From Halichondria panicea (lineage: Eukaryota > Porifera > Demospongiae > Suberitida > Halichondriidae), in contig NC_087382.1 of the NCBI RefSeq assembly GCF_963675165.1, positions 3,263,963 to 3,327,962 of the forward strand: DNA of 64,000 bases. The letters run 5' to 3'. The translations under genes were made by a program, and so were the position numbers. Position 1 is the stretch's first letter, and every line of letters starts with the position of its first letter. Of this stretch, positions 37,745 to 47,340 are shown in pieces. A model generated the notes under the pieces. That model saw only the letters and a list, made by a program, of their open reading frames with translations. It was not told where the DNA came from and did not search any database.

Positions 37745-38695
37745 TCATACGGCTGCATCCGTGGTAGTTTGGCTGAACCATGTCAATGGATGAGCATTGA
37801 CTAGATTCGTCTCATCTACTTGTATTCGGTTGTCAGCATGTTGAACACGTTTAGTTCGGAAACTGTACAACAGGTACCCAAGCACACAGTAGGGGTAAAG
37901 AGCTGATATAGTGACTAATAATATGATCAGGCCAATGCTGGTATCTTCCGATAGTTCGACCATAGACAAGACAAAATAAGCAATGCTTAATATAGTAACT
38001 ATGAAGTACATAAACCACATCACTAGTTCCTTGACACATCTTCTTTTTGCTATTAGTTTCCTTTGAACACAAAACCAAACAAGTAGAATTACATAACCAA
38101 TCAAACCTAAGAGCATTGCTGCTGGAGTGACCATATAAATCGCAGCTTCACCACCACTTACTATAAAAAAAGGTATAGGCAGTACAATTATTATAAGCAG
38201 GAATACCACTTCCAGTATCACTTGTTGTTTGGGTGTACGATTTACACAACACGGCTGTCTTCTCATACAGCAGCTGCACATTTGAGCACATAGTTTCCAT
38301 AGCAGAATAGAGTAAGCTGTAAAGCTTAGAACAGAAGAAATCCATATTGCATATCCAAATCCCTGCTGATTATATATTCCACTACTATGCTCACAACTGT
38401 CAGGTCGATGTATACTCGACCTCATCACTAAGCCTATTGCTAATCCTACCAGCAATGTTGTAGTCACAGACAAGTAGACAAATAATCTCACGAGGAAATG
38501 TGTCTTCTTTCGACAGATGAAAGCAATGTTTAAAACCAGTCCGATTGTACTGAATAGAAGTTCCAGAGAGAACAGCACTATCTGTGCCAATGTAAACTTG
38601 GGAAAAACTTCATATGGCAATAAACTTTCTTGACACCCGTCATAGACATAGTCAATAGATCGGTTATAGTCTGAGATGTTCTTTGGTACATCCAT
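37745..38695 (-). CDS. Orphan 7TM protein, copy 3
   Basis: Intronless, 316 residues, seven helices in the same arrangement as copies 1 and 2. It differs in the first extracellular loop (SSIHRPDSCEHSSG) and in a short helix 6-7 loop (VELSEDTSIG). The tail ends TWFSQTTTDAAV. Start MDVPKNISDYNRS carries two glycosylation sites. No lesion. Its start lies only about 25 bp from the left end of the large element at 38722, which may therefore have split its promoter. Confidence 0.75.
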   Translation of the reverse strand: MDVPKNISDYNRSIDYVYDGCQESLLPYEVFPKFTLAQIVLFSLELLFSTIGLVLNIAFICRKKTHFLVRLFVYLSVTTTLLVGLAIGLVMRSSIHRPDSCEHSSGIYNQQGFGYAIWISSVLSFTAYSILLWKLCAQMCSCCMRRQPCCVNRTPKQQVILEVVFLLIIIVLPIPFFIVSGGEAAIYMVTPAAMLLGLIGYVILLVWFCVQRKLIAKRRCVKELVMWFMYFIVTILSIAYFVLSMVELSEDTSIGLIILLVTISALYPYCVLGYLLYSFRTKRVQHADNRIQVDETNLVNAHPLTWFSQTTTDAAV

Positions 38696-38849
38696 CTTGG
38701 AGCACTTGCAATTGGCTATTTTACGGTGGCTCTGAGAGCTACTTGCAGTTGACGTTAGAAGTAGATAGTTGGCTTACCTATTTAGCTTTCTTTCGAAGTA
38801 GGTAGTTGGCTTACCTATACCTATTTAGCTTTCGAAGTAGGTAGTTGGC

Positions 38850-40421: not shown

Positions 40422-40593
40422 CACTTCCGTTTCCAATCCCTCTCTCCTACATCTATGCCTATACCTATTTAGCTAGCCTCGTTCCCAGGCCTTACTTTTT
40501 CTTGCTGTTGTCACTGTTCATCCATAAACATAAGAAAGACATAGTGAGGCAGCAAAGAAAGAAATGGGCGTACAGTTAAACGAGCATGCGCAG

Positions 40594-40600
40594 TATAAAA
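40594..40600 (+). promoter_or_regulatory. TATA box for the transposase gene
   Basis: TATAAAA followed by GGGGGCTGGGC in the left inverted end, 178 bp before the transposase start codon. The same block in mirror orientation precedes the accessory gene. Confidence 0.55.
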
Positions 40601-40777
40601 GGGGGCTGGGCAGTCCAGAAAATGGACGCATATAATTATAAAAAATGGTGGAAATGTACGCTTACTCTGGGAGCTATATATAGAGCTCTGTGAAGCTATA
40701 TATAGTGCTCTGGGAGGTACTTAGACTATATTTAGATCTAAGCCAGCAACCAGACACGTGTACGAGTAGTTTGCGCT

Positions 40778-43212
40778 ATGGCAAGTCAAAGAAATCGTTT
40801 CAGACATTCTCTAGTTGTCAATTTTGACAATGAAGCAGCTAAGGCTGCATTCAAGACAAGGGCTGAGCATATACGCTCTGTGCTTTCTCCTGCTGGACAG
40901 CCAACCCTGGACAACGCTGGTTTGATGTCAGCCATGTTTGACCTGGTTGAGCAGCTGATTCCCGCGCCTTACGCGGGTAGTCCTAGTGTAGTTCCTGCAA
41001 GACAGTCATTCAACAAAGACAGTGGTAAGTTACTGTTTGTAGCAAGTAGATGTAAATAGTATACACTGGCTGCTAGTGGGCACAGGCCTTTGTCTTTAAT
41101 ATAGCTACTATTTGTAAATACAGGCATCTATACTGGTAATATTAGACCAGATGATGAAGCTGCATTCCTCACTGAGAGGACGTGTCTGGCTGATTTGTTG
41201 GAGGGGTTGAAGACATCTTGTTCGTGTGGCTTATCTGTCAACCCTTGGACAGTAGGATCACTTGTTCAGGTACGTGTAGCTATAATTATATATACAAATA
41301 TTATCTTCTATAATAGAAGGGCCATGTCCTGAGGCTAAAGTTCTCGTGCCGCAGATGCCATGTCGCTGAGAGAACGTGGTCCAGCTCCAGAGTGTTTGGA
41401 GCGCGTTACTTCTTGAACCAAAAGTAAGTTTCTCACATTATACCAAACATAAAATCATTTACATGTGTATTTAGAATGGTTCACAGTCTCACCTGTGCCG
41501 GTGTGCTGCCAGTCCAGTACATCAAACTCTCTAAGTTTGCGGGAATCGGCCATGTTGGACATGGGTACATGAAGAAAGGTGCGAAGAAAAATTTTGTTGA
41601 AATTACTGATTGCACTGTATGCAGTGTACTACGCCAGTGGATACTCTGATATAGTGGGCAGGATGGCAGAGGAGAGCATGAATGCTGCAGTGGATGAAGT
41701 GAAGGCCCTGCCAGCTTATGCCGAGAATGGAGAGGTAAGAAGGAATACGATTTTAGTAAAAGTATGTTTTTGTCTTGTTAGTGGGTCATTACTGACGCCA
41801 GGCATGACTCCACTGCTAATGCCTACCACACTACTGTGCCTTGTCTCGCTGGAAGGTACATACGATTATTAAAATTGTATATATCTGTTTACCTACTTTC
41901 TTCCTAGCACCAAGAAGATAGTTGGGATATCTACAGTGTCTCGAACAGACCACGGTGTTGCTCAGACACGAGAATTGCAGTGCACTAAGATTGCTGTGCC
42001 ACAGGCAATTGCTCGTGGTATGGCACCTTTTTGTGTATGTACTATGCTAATCAGTATTGTAATTCAGGTCTGAATGTTGTAGAAGTGGCGCATGATATGC
42101 AGCATCAAGTGTCTCGTTACGTGACCTCTGATCTGGGACTGAAGAACTCCTTTGATACATGGCATGGTAAGTATTAGTAATAATAAAGTACACTGTTCAG
42201 AACTGTTTTATTCAGGGACCAAGAATTTGTCAAAGTGTCTCCAGAAGGTTACTCAGGGTCGAGTTAGAGACAAGGGACTGACATGGTTTCCTGAGCTGGT
42301 TGACAAGCGTACGTTTCCTATACTTATGTGTAATGGTGTGTTTTCAGTGTTCTTTAGGAAAGAGTATAAAGGTGCATCTATACTGGGCTATGAAGAATTG
42401 TGATGGTGATGGCCAGAAGCTTCGTAGTCTGATAGAAAATATCGCTATGCACTATCAGGTAAAGTAATGCAATAATAATTATTATTACACTAGTAATTTT
42501 TAGGACAACCACCTTGAATGCCACCCTTCATCGACTTGTCATCTCCCTCACTACGCTCCTGGCAAGGATCTGCTGACTGACCCGGCTACTGTCCAGCAGC
42601 TGGAGAAACAATTGAAGGACACCTACATCTATCGCTTCCCAGAGTCCTTCTGTAGGGTATGTTCGTTGAGTATGACTATAACCTACTTAGACTGTGTGCT
42701 GTATATAGTGTCGTGATATGTATTGGGTGGAAAGTTTCAACCACCAGCTTCTCTGCTACATCTCAAAGAGGATCCACTACTCTACCAGGGTTTTCTCTAT
42801 GAGAATGAACTTGGCTGTGTTGGACTGGGTAAGGTTACTACTTCCCTGACAATTTGATATTAATAATTATATTCAGAATGAGAACGTGGGACGAGAGCAC
42901 ACAAGCGAGCGCAAGTTGAAAGACCTTCGGCGACCTGACCGCAGAACTGCCATGAAAGCTCTCGTCAAGAAAACGTATGAGTTTGCTTATGTACTGTGGA
43001 CCACCTACGTTACAAAGAACATGACAAGCTTGGAGTAAGTCAACGTATCTAGTGATCAGTACAATACTTATTGTTATTGTTGTAGTTTTCTTGATGAAGA
43101 TGATGGCGATGATGGCGATGATTCTGATACTTTAGAAGATGGGGAGATTGTACCTGATTCAGACAGTGATTACGAGGATGATGATCCTGGCTGTGTGGGA
43201 CCAGACGTCTGA
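40778..43212 (+). CDS. Kolobok-like DDE transposase
   Basis: Fourteen exons with GT-AG borders and unbroken phase: 40778-41024, 41124-41269, 41317-41423, 41475-41578, 41625-41734, 41782-41855, 41908-42017, 42068-42166, 42216-42308, 42358-42458, 42504-42656, 42709-42828, 42877-43034 and 43086-43212, giving 582 residues. A cysteine zinc-binding part (CSCG and, 30 residues on, CRRCH) lies near residues 115-150. Likely catalytic acids are D243 in WVITDARHDS, D309 in VAHDMQHQ and E456 in YWVESFNHQ. The FDTWHGTKNL motif between them and LAVLDWNENVGR near the C terminus resemble Kolobok transposases. The tail after about residue 540 is very acidic. Introns are only about 43-100 bp. Protein similarity is from memory; TTAA ends support it. 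Confidence 0.7.
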
Positions 43213-43335
43213 TTGTGTGAGTATGTTGGTATAATGTACTTTTGTTTCGCTAACCCCCTTTTAGCCAGTCATACGTCATCCTATGTTTATCATTAATTTT
43301 ACATACAATTAATAATGAGTCTGTTTGTACTAAAA

Positions 43336-44100
43336 TTAATCTTCTATATTATCGTCTGTAGTGTCGTATTCAATACTGGCGTCAAATGTACTCATGTAAT
43401 CCCTATAATGTCCGTCATCTGTAGGATAGCGTCTTCGAATTTCCTGCATGTACAGTACATGTATACACTTGAGTAATTTAATGCCATGAATTTTTTTTTT
43501 CTTACTTCAATTACACAGCGTGGCATGATGTCTCTCCTGTCATCCCTTGCAGTGCGCAGCTCCTTCGCTCTCAAGTACTCCTCGTCCTGCCACACCCCAA
43601 GCGTGTTCAGACACCTCCAAAACAGCTTGTAGAGCCTGTGTCGCTTCTCTGCATTGGCTGGATGTGGGTCACATGATCCCTTCAAAAACGTTGGAGGCTG
43701 TTGAATGACGCACGGGGCACAGAAACAGTGTGGACAGTGGTTGAGCCCTCTGTGGACGGGCACATTATGTTGTAGTGTCTCGTAACCACGAGGAAGATCA
43801 CGCACACTCACATCTGCTGAAAGAAAGCGATAATAATTGGCTAAGTTGTACACGTATTGTGATATGGTCACTTACCTTGCCTTTCTTCCAGATCAATTTC
43901 ATTCTCTGGTCTAACCACCCTCTCCCAAACGATCTCTGCCCTAAACCCTCTTGTTGGCTGGTGATCACGAATGAATTTGTTCAATTCTGAGATGAACACT
44001 TGAGGAGGAATATCGTCGTATTCAACTCTAACCTGGAACAAAACTGTGTATAGCTTCATATTGTTTGTATTGGTCTTACTTTTATGGTTTTTGCAGCCAT
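43336..44100 (-). CDS. Transposon accessory protein with P2X7 ballast-like domain
   Basis: Four exons: 44100-44080, 44032-43876, 43816-43506 and 43443-43336, phases consistent, 198 residues. The C-terminal half reads LNHCPHCFCAPCVIQQPP, then HRLYKLFWRCLNTLG, IMPRCVIE and EIRRRYPTDDGHYRDY. The order Cys cluster, RLYK..WRC, PRC, IRRRYP..GHY matches the cytosolic C-terminal (ballast, zinc-binding) domain of P2X7 receptors, where the end reads like PSCCRWRIRKEFPKSEGQY. The N-terminal 60 residues are new to me. There is no membrane segment and no P2X channel part. It is transcribed towards the transposase gene; stops lie 123 bp apart. Exon 3 has a CAGCAG acceptor that permits two one-residue variants. 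Role in transposition unknown. Confidence 0.65.
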
Positions 44101-44210
44101 AGTAAGCGCTAGCAAAGATAATATCTCTGTGGATAGTAGCTAGCTGTGTGTGCAAGTCTTGCGGCACAATTTGAAATTGTAATCACTTCCTTCCGGACTG
44201 CCCAGCCCCC

Positions 44211-44217
44211 TTTTATA
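44211..44217 (-). promoter_or_regulatory. TATA box for the accessory gene
   Basis: Mirror copy of the left-end TATAAAA block, 111 bp before the accessory start codon on the minus strand. Confidence 0.55.
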
Positions 44218-44270
44218 CACGGGAGCGCGGCGTGCTATCGCGCATTGATATCTGACGCATGCTCGTTTAA

Positions 44271-46475
44271 GAAAAGTAAGGCCTGGTCTGGGAAATCGCG
44301 TGATCCGCAAGGATTTTTATGAACGTGGGCGATATGTAGCCCACAATCGTGACGTAAGGTATTCTCCCACGCATTCAGAGTAAGACTGTACTGTACTGCA
44401 CTGAGACAACCCAGCAAGTCAGATCAGAGAACCAGCGTGGCCAGCTCTGGTGGCAGTAGCTACCTGCTATATGATAATGATGACTAAGCTATTCTACTAT
44501 AGCATGTAGAAAGACACAAGAAAAGGTAATAGTGATAGAATCTAAACACACAATCTCTAGACTAGTAGATCATCTAGCTAAGCCTAAGGTATAGCTAGCT
44601 ATAGTGCTTGCAAACTTCCAGTTCCAAGTCCATGTCCAGCTTGCTGCAGGCAAAGTTTTATTAGTCGTAGACCTCTGCGTGGGCAGTCCAACATCTCTAG
44701 CTCAGTATGCCCACGCTCATTTTCACCCTTCTACCCTCAGCGACTTCCCGATACAGGCTCTCCTCAGAGCTCTCCTTTTTCCTAACTCTACGTCTATTTC
44801 TTTCTTTATTCCTCCAATTAATACCGTATTTTATCTCATTGAACGAATAATACAGTATTTTATCTTATTGAACGATATGATAAAGAGAGCCTGTGTAGAG
44901 GCTACTATCAAGCTTTTAGACTACATTACATCATCTGTAATTGATCTGATTGGCTAAAAACAGTAGATTACATGGAAGCATAATCTACAAGAAAGTACTT
45001 ATTCTACAGGAAATGGGCGCATATTCTACAGGAAGTGGACACATATTCTACAGGAAATGGACGCATATTCTACAGGAAGTGACAAATAATTTGCAAGAAG
45101 TTCTCAAAAGTTGAAATGAAATTTTTAGTGAAAGTGACAAGATGACAAAAACATTATAAAAACACAGAATGCAATAGTTTGTTCAGTCAATATCCATTCT
45201 TTCCATGTCCACTGTTGCTTTGTATTGCTTTTTCCAGTTGGGCATGGGCAAGGGGGGCCAGGAAGCATCAAAAACACTTTAGCAGTCGCTTGACACTTTC
45301 TATTGAGTTTTTTAAGGTTCCATGCCGGTCCAGTCTGCTCTATACCCCCTCCACTCCACCACAGAGCTTCATTCTTCTTCTTGTTGTGTTGCAGTCAGTT
45401 CTAGCATAGTTCTAGGTTCTTTTTACTTGTCTGTTCTTTCCAGTATCTTCAAGAAGCGTTTCACAAGCTTTACTAAGTTTTTCATTGTTTTGAAGCCGTC
45501 TTCTTATCTTTTTCTGTCAACTGGTGTCTCTCACAGCTCTCCAGCTTGTCCAGCTCGCACAAATTCAATTTCTGTTGCTACGCACCAAACCTGGCTTTTT
45601 ATAACCATAGTTGGTGACCTTTAAACTCTAGCTCTACAAGAGAGAAGTGGGCGGGGCCGGGGGACAAGCCAGGTCCCAGGCCACTCTTCCTCTCCTTTTG
45701 AGGCCTTGTGAAAGAGGCTCATACGTAGGGCTAGGGTAGACTATTTACTATTTTGTTGTGTGTTAGAGTAGAAGAGGGTATTATGAGATGGAACCAATTA
45801 TGAGACAGCTGTTTAAAACAGGAGTGCTTCAGCTATTTTGTCTGCAGTTAATTAATAGCACTACCACTCTAGTATTTTTTCTAAAAGAAATTTGGAGTTG
45901 TATGCTTGTGTTGACAGAGATACCACAATAGTTTGTTTAAGTACAGAATTTAATTGGAAAAAACATTTTTATTGACCAAATTTAAGTGGGTGCCAAATGT
46001 TTGTAGTAAATTTCACTAGGTATCAGTTAAAACAGGAGTAACTGTTTTTATAGGCAAAATAATCACTATATTTTAATATCAAAAAGTTCCAGATATGTTA
46101 GAACAGCCAATTAGCGTTAAAATTAATTAATTGCAATGGTGTCTCGTAAATACCCCCCCTGTCTCATAATATCCAAACCACTTTGAACACTAGCTGCAAA
46201 CAAAGCACTGTCACTAATTTTTTTGCTTACATGCAAAGCATATTTACCATAATAGTTAGTGAACAGGCTATTTAGCTCCCTCAAGATTACTGCAAGACAG
46301 GGGGGTCAGACACATTTAGAGGTCTCATAATACCCCCTTGTACTCTATAATCATTGGATGCAATGACACACAGAGAACATGCTATATCAGCACTGTGGTT
46401 CAGCTGAAACATGTAACAGTATCGCACACACTAGCACTACTGTAGATTTTCTAATACACATTGAATGTCATTTGT
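44271..46475. other. Right interior of the large element, mostly non-coding
   Basis: No gene supported. 45003-45082 holds about four units of a 20-bp repeat (TCTACAGGAAATGGACGCAT and variants). TTGGTGACCTTTAAA near 45610 returns in inverse near 46940, which suggests another nested insertion of about 1.3 kb. Confidence 0.5.
45003..45082. repeat. About 20-bp tandem repeat, four units
   Basis: Units alternate between TCTACAGGAAATGG and TCTACAGGAAGTG forms, each followed by a short ACGCATAT or ACACATAT spacer. Confidence 0.8.
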
Positions 46476-46547: not shown

Positions 46548-46950
46548 CTGCAAGACAAAGATCTACGATTACAAACAGTATACCTGTACTGCTGACCCTC
46601 CTCCCACCCACAGCGATTTATAAGATTTATACAAGCACAGCAGATTCATGTTAGATACTATAAATTATGATGTAAGGCTTACATTTACTTTTGTGGGGAG
46701 AGGAAGGGGAATTTGTAACAACAGTTCCTTACCTTTCCTACTCAACTCTGTCTCAGGCTACTGCAACATCTTGCAAGACTTCAAGAGTTTGCTAAGGATA
46801 TTACATACTTTGGAGCACTGCATGCTGACATTCTCTACAGTATAAACACAGCACAAACACCATGGCAAGGCTAAAGCGTTTAGCACTAAGTAGCTAGATT
46901 TAAATGGGCATTTATTGGAATGAACACATTCCGTTTAGTTTAAAGGTCAC

Positions 46951-47340
46951 CAACTACCTACTTCGAAAGCTAAATAGGTATAGGCCTAGGTACAAGCCAA
47001 CTACCTACTTCGAAAGCTAAATAGGTATAGGTAAGCCAACTACTTACTTCGAAAGCTAAATAGCTAAGCCAACTACCTACTTCGAAAGCTAAATAGCTAA
47101 GCCAACTACCTACTTCGAAAGCTAAATAGGTATAGGTAAGCCAACTACCTACTTTGAAAGCTAAATAGGTAAGCCAACTACCTACTTCGAAAGCTAAATA
47201 GCTAAGCCAACTACCTACTTCGAAAGCTAAATAGGTATAGGTAAGCCAACTACCTACTTTGAAAGCTAAATAGGTAAGCCAACTACCTACTTCGAAAGCT
47301 AAATAGGTAAGCCAACTATCTACTTCGAAAGTCAACTGCA
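46951..47340. repeat. Subterminal tandem repeat array (right end of the large element)
   Basis: About ten units of AGCCAACTACCTACTTCGAA followed by AGCTAAATAGGTA with or without an extra TAGGTA, so unit length alternates between about 33 and 41 bp. The left end has three units in inverse orientation (38760-38920). The long open frame on the minus strand (repeating WLTYLAFEVGS) is a product of the repeat, not a protein gene. Confidence 0.9.

Follow-up and report, generated by a model that had tools for sequence, protein, structure and literature searches.

A probable divergent KolX gene with a P2X7-like tail in a TTAA-bounded Kolobok-type transposon of Halichondria panicea

The window analysed here (64,000 nucleotides; G000:C6:3263963-3327962, in a 131-Mb genome of 39 contigs) contains a small gene that resembles the cytosolic C-terminal domain of the P2X7 receptor, raising the question of whether a transposon encodes a stand-alone relative of this domain and how close that relationship is. 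The gene occurs in a TTAA-bounded Kolobok-type DNA transposon at 40576-44270, of which the element proper is 3,687 bp long with short inverted repeats, and which contains two genes arranged tail to tail, followed by a mirror-image right end. The best overall explanation, with a probability of roughly 0.73, is that the small gene is gene 2 of an intact transposon of the Kolobok superfamily, whose family moved recently, and encodes a divergent KolX protein with an accessory role. The features of the element are as follows.

40576-40579, unstranded: left TTAA target site
40580-40590, plus strand: left terminal inverted repeat, 11 bp (ACGAGCATGCG)
40593-40620: left copy of an inner 28-bp inverted block (27 of 28 positions identical)
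40778-43212, plus strand: intact gene for a Kolobok-type DDE transposase, 14 exons, 581 amino acids, 13 of 13 introns GT-AG, single open frame
43336-44100, minus strand: accessory gene (probable divergent KolX), 198 amino acids, no stop, four exons (44100-44080, 44032-43876, 43816-43506, and 43443-43336)
44191-44218, minus strand: right copy of the inner 28-bp inverted block
44256-44266, minus strand: right terminal inverted repeat, 11 bp
44267-44270, unstranded: right TTAA target site

A preliminary description had attributed the gene at 43336-44100 to a DNA transposon, and the TTAA sites and inverted repeats that enclose it as the second gene of a Kolobok-type element agree with this. Its three introns (44079-44033, 43875-43817, and 43505-43444) are all GT-AG. 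The termini of the Kolobok superfamily are given as 5'-RR and YY-3' in the available text of PMC9587614, whereas AC follows TTAA at both ends of the window element. At the accessory-gene end of 14 copies with a TTAA border, the sequence was TTAA-AC in 13 and TTAA-AG in one (L020). A 15-bp inverted repeat (CCAGGCCTTACTTTT) is located outside the element ends, at 40485-40499 and 44272-44286, and perhaps marks the termini of an older element that served as the insertion site of the window element. Elsewhere in the window, a tandem array with a short unit (CCAACTACCTACTTCGAAAGCTAAATAGG and variants) was recognized by eye at about 46945-47340, and an open frame of 342 amino acids (37745-38773, minus strand) rich in hydrophobic stretches resembled a membrane protein, its only Pfam match being weak (E 0.47).

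The transposase possesses the DDE arrangement with a C/DxxH motif between the second D and the E that characterizes Kolobok, with the residue roles assigned by eye: the proposed catalytic residues are D242, D308, and E455, and the DxxH motif is DTWH at 328, between AHDMQH (306) and VESFNHQ (454). Its match to the Mutator family PF20700 (E 1.6e-5, 24.5 bits) was under the cut-off of 26.5, and a scan of the genome for Mutator returned 26 matches, none of them this gene. In Pfam, at E up to 1, it matched neither piggyBac nor THAP. The stretch HLECHPSSTC, read by eye only, sits between DxxH and E, where a zinc finger occurs in almost all Kolobok lineages except Kolobok1 according to the part of PMC9587614 available. 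In the same source, a small number of piggyBac families are said to carry KolX-like proteins of reduced form; these families share the TTAA target with the window element; the window transposase differs from these families, as far as their published description goes, in its Mutator match and DxxH motif.

The accessory protein contained WRC, PRC, IRRRYP, and GHY in that order, as the preliminary description had stated, and it had no channel part, since P2RX7_C and DUF4074 (E 0.99) were its only Pfam matches at E up to 1. In the scan against all of Pfam, P2RX7_C (PF20478) was matched at E 8.1e-4 and 19.8 bits by residues 150-178, a stretch of 29 residues that corresponds to model positions 162-190 of 192. 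The profile search with this family that had been proposed was thus significant but weak, because the curated cut-off of 23.5 bits is missed by the window protein and passed by the canonical KolX of another locus in the same genome (L063; 39.4 bits). In alignment A1, composed of eight members picked to represent the subfamilies among 42 genomic loci, seven members matched P2RX7_C with E values no higher than 1 (the lowest 7.3e-4), and three members rescanned against it gave E values of 0.029, 0.079, and 0.28; these matches are not independent because the members are related. Judged from these sequence comparisons, the match of the tail to P2RX7_C is more than chance. The cysteines C87, C90, C95, and C160 were invariant in all eight rows of A1. 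The cysteine of WRC was replaced by L or S in six of the eight rows, and WRC is therefore not a feature of the family.

Three motifs have been described for the ZCD, the ballast domain of P2X7, in the available part of PMC7016195: PxWCxCx2C, LCCRx3GxCITT, and (LIV)PSC(CS)x3IRx2(FY)Px5Y(ST)G. The first is represented in the window protein by CxCx2C without PxW, its middle cysteine being lost in two of the eight members; the second, which forms the second cysteine cluster, was absent in a pattern search; and the third was found in a relaxed form (MPRCVIEEIRRRYP) but not in the strict form. The P2X7 cysteine cluster claimed earlier was thus not confirmed in full. Compared with the P2X7 ballast (P2RX7_C; PTHR36981; PMC7016195, as far as its text was available), the window protein shares the CxCx2C core, RHxxYxxF, and PxC-IRxxYP in the same order, whereas it has no channel, lacks one ZCD motif, retains two partially, and falls under the Pfam cut-off. 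Likeness to the P2X7 C-terminal domain as a whole was thus overstated, since the protein scores under the P2RX7_C cut-off and the second zinc-cysteine cluster is missing; the tail is related to that domain.

The same genome provided a closer comparison. A genome search with PF20478 identified two places, L063 (4138-8121; G000:C7 near 4.02 Mb) and L064 (near 6.48 Mb), both on contig C7 and 98% identical over 3,545 bases, and a search with the KolX exon of L063 gave nine matches at six places. In L063, the KolX gene (P2RX7_C, E 7.7e-10; P2X7 chain 6u9v, E 2.5e-5) faces an opposing frame, tail to tail as in the window element; this frame encodes a THAP domain (E 2.8e-21) and a stretch of Mutator-type transposase that exceeds the cut-off (28 bits). 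Chain 6u9v is that of rat P2X7. The ends of L063 read TTAA-AGGG on both sides, which is the expected 5'-RR, and no TTAA-headed pair of ends was found when looked for in L064. The transposases of L063 and the window element, which gave a BLASTP E value of 2e-4 (one comparison) at 20% identity, are related; the THAP match of L063 has no counterpart in the window transposase. L063 was taken for a canonical Kol0 element, and the window element would be a second, divergent lineage that shares its layout. The window gene resembles the KolX of Kol0 Kolobok, as described in the available text of PMC9587614, in its place as the second gene, next to a DDE transposase, of an element with TTAA target sites and in its P2X7-like tail, and differs from it in lacking the second cysteine cluster. 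About 16 more residues than in canonical KolX separate its RxxxY stretch from the PxC motif; both this count and the RxxxY resemblance rest on manual reading because the two RxxxY stretches were not brought together by MAFFT.

These comparisons bear on the main alternative, that the accessory protein is not a relative of KolX and that its short cysteine and IRxxYP tail motif arose by convergence in an unrelated zinc protein. The P2RX7_C match covers only 29 residues below the cut-off; a profile of the eight A1 members found no P2X7 chain in the PDB; hhalign against canonical KolX together with a P2X7 sequence aligned 23 tail columns at E 0.0026 (one comparison) with a probability of only 11.6%; and fold searches were empty, with structure models of low confidence (pLDDT 49.6 for copy L065 and 60.5 for window exon 3 alone), too poor for a comparison with the ballast fold and its two zinc ions and GDP site. 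On the other hand, convergence would have to account for an E value of 8.1e-4 against all of Pfam, for the matches of seven of the eight members to the same model, for a position and convergent orientation equal to those of the canonical KolX, and for the retained order of CxCx2C, RxxxYKxF, and PxC-IRxxYP, patterns that were picked after both proteins had been seen. Shuffling the protein 200,000 times never produced the combined ordered motif, a result that for the same reason is no clean test. Convergence is thus considered improbable, and the accessory protein is probably a divergent KolX protein.

The accessory gene also travels with its element. Exon 3 gave 49 matches in the whole genome at E up to 0.01, which merged into 42 loci; with a C-terminal part of the transposase as query, 139 matches (E up to 0.001) merged into 57 loci, both counts of loci being lower bounds. 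A transposase was located within 3 kb at 35 of the 42 accessory loci (33 convergent, two on the same strand), and the accessory gene therefore belongs to the element family; the absence of this gene from related Kolobok copies, which would have spoken against the earlier account, was not seen. Capture of a host gene by the transposon (Nanor-like or P2X7-like), as opposed to donation of a transposon gene to hosts, is very improbable, because it would agree with the seven loci without a transposase within 3 kb but not with the other 35, nor with the same layout of the gene in several subfamilies, nor with the restriction of P2X receptor matches to one place on contig C8, where no P2RX7_C match occurred, while the P2RX7_C matches are on C7. 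No accessory-gene match accompanied 22 of the 57 transposase loci. Fourteen of these 22, as judged by exon 3, are on contig C1 (0.088-1.0 Mb, 6.18 Mb, and 13.33 Mb), with 12 in the first megabase, and the one examined there (L069) retained the last accessory exon.

Copies were compared in 19 pairs, using 23 of 30 accessory loci (L003-L032) sorted into four subfamilies. Similarity on the accessory side began at TTAA in 14 of the 19 pairs (one base earlier in one case), which places the accessory gene within the mobile unit. Two pairs of copies at different sites showed identities of 99.88 and 100% across roughly 840 bases, and such near-identity speaks for recent movement of the family. In exon 3, pN was lower than pS in all 28 pairs of eight chosen sequences; dN/dS was 0.13 for the closest pair (window and L004) and 0.08 to 0.38 in another seven, synonymous sites being saturated in the remaining 20. 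Exon 3 of the accessory gene is under purifying selection.

The relationship between KolX and P2X7 has been proposed previously. In the available text of Kojima and Bao (2022; PMC9587614), the fold of the P2X7 cytoplasmic ballast is assigned to the KolX proteins of Kol0, a lineage reported there from vertebrates, annelids, cnidarians, and sponges. P2X7 itself is traced to a P2X4-like gene that fused with KolX, and Nanor is probably derived from KolX as well. Stand-alone ballast domains were found across animals, including a sponge (Rump and others, PMC7016195, in the part available), in an article whose text does not contain the words transposon, transposable, or transposase. The suggestion in the preliminary description that the receptor domain was captured from such an element is thus in print and not new: derivation of the P2X7 ballast from a Kolobok protein was published as early as 2022, and the window gene is a variant of this known kind. 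A reduced KolX form like the window protein was not met in the literature searched, as far as its text was available and with Repbase outside the search. What remains is a KolX lineage that has diverged, keeps four cysteines invariant, retains a P2X7-like tail, and is under purifying selection.

If the accessory protein is such a KolX, the ballast domain of P2X7 would be a captured branch of the same family, as proposed in the available text of PMC9587614. The protein may be a small zinc-binding factor, and a single four-cysteine site (C87, C90, C95, and C160) would take the place that the two-zinc centre occupies in canonical KolX. The protein may be made together with the transposase and aid it, most likely as a part or a regulator of the transposase-DNA complex. 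This function, as a zinc-binding helper or regulator of transposition, is proposed tentatively and is much less certain than the identity of the protein.

The genome newly provides mobile copies that are nearly identical, together with a KolX lineage whose reduced form reveals the residues that were retained. The available text of PMC9587614 names no function for KolX, and a minimal natural KolX is a useful test object for this function and for what the ballast inherited from it. Two structural classes of KolX might even coexist in this one genome, a canonical, P2X7-ballast-like class with two zincs and a stripped class with a single four-cysteine site, although this is doubtful. If it were true, the part needed by the transposon would be the P2X7-like tail rather than the two-zinc centre, and this would point towards the ancestral activity passed on to vertebrate P2X7.
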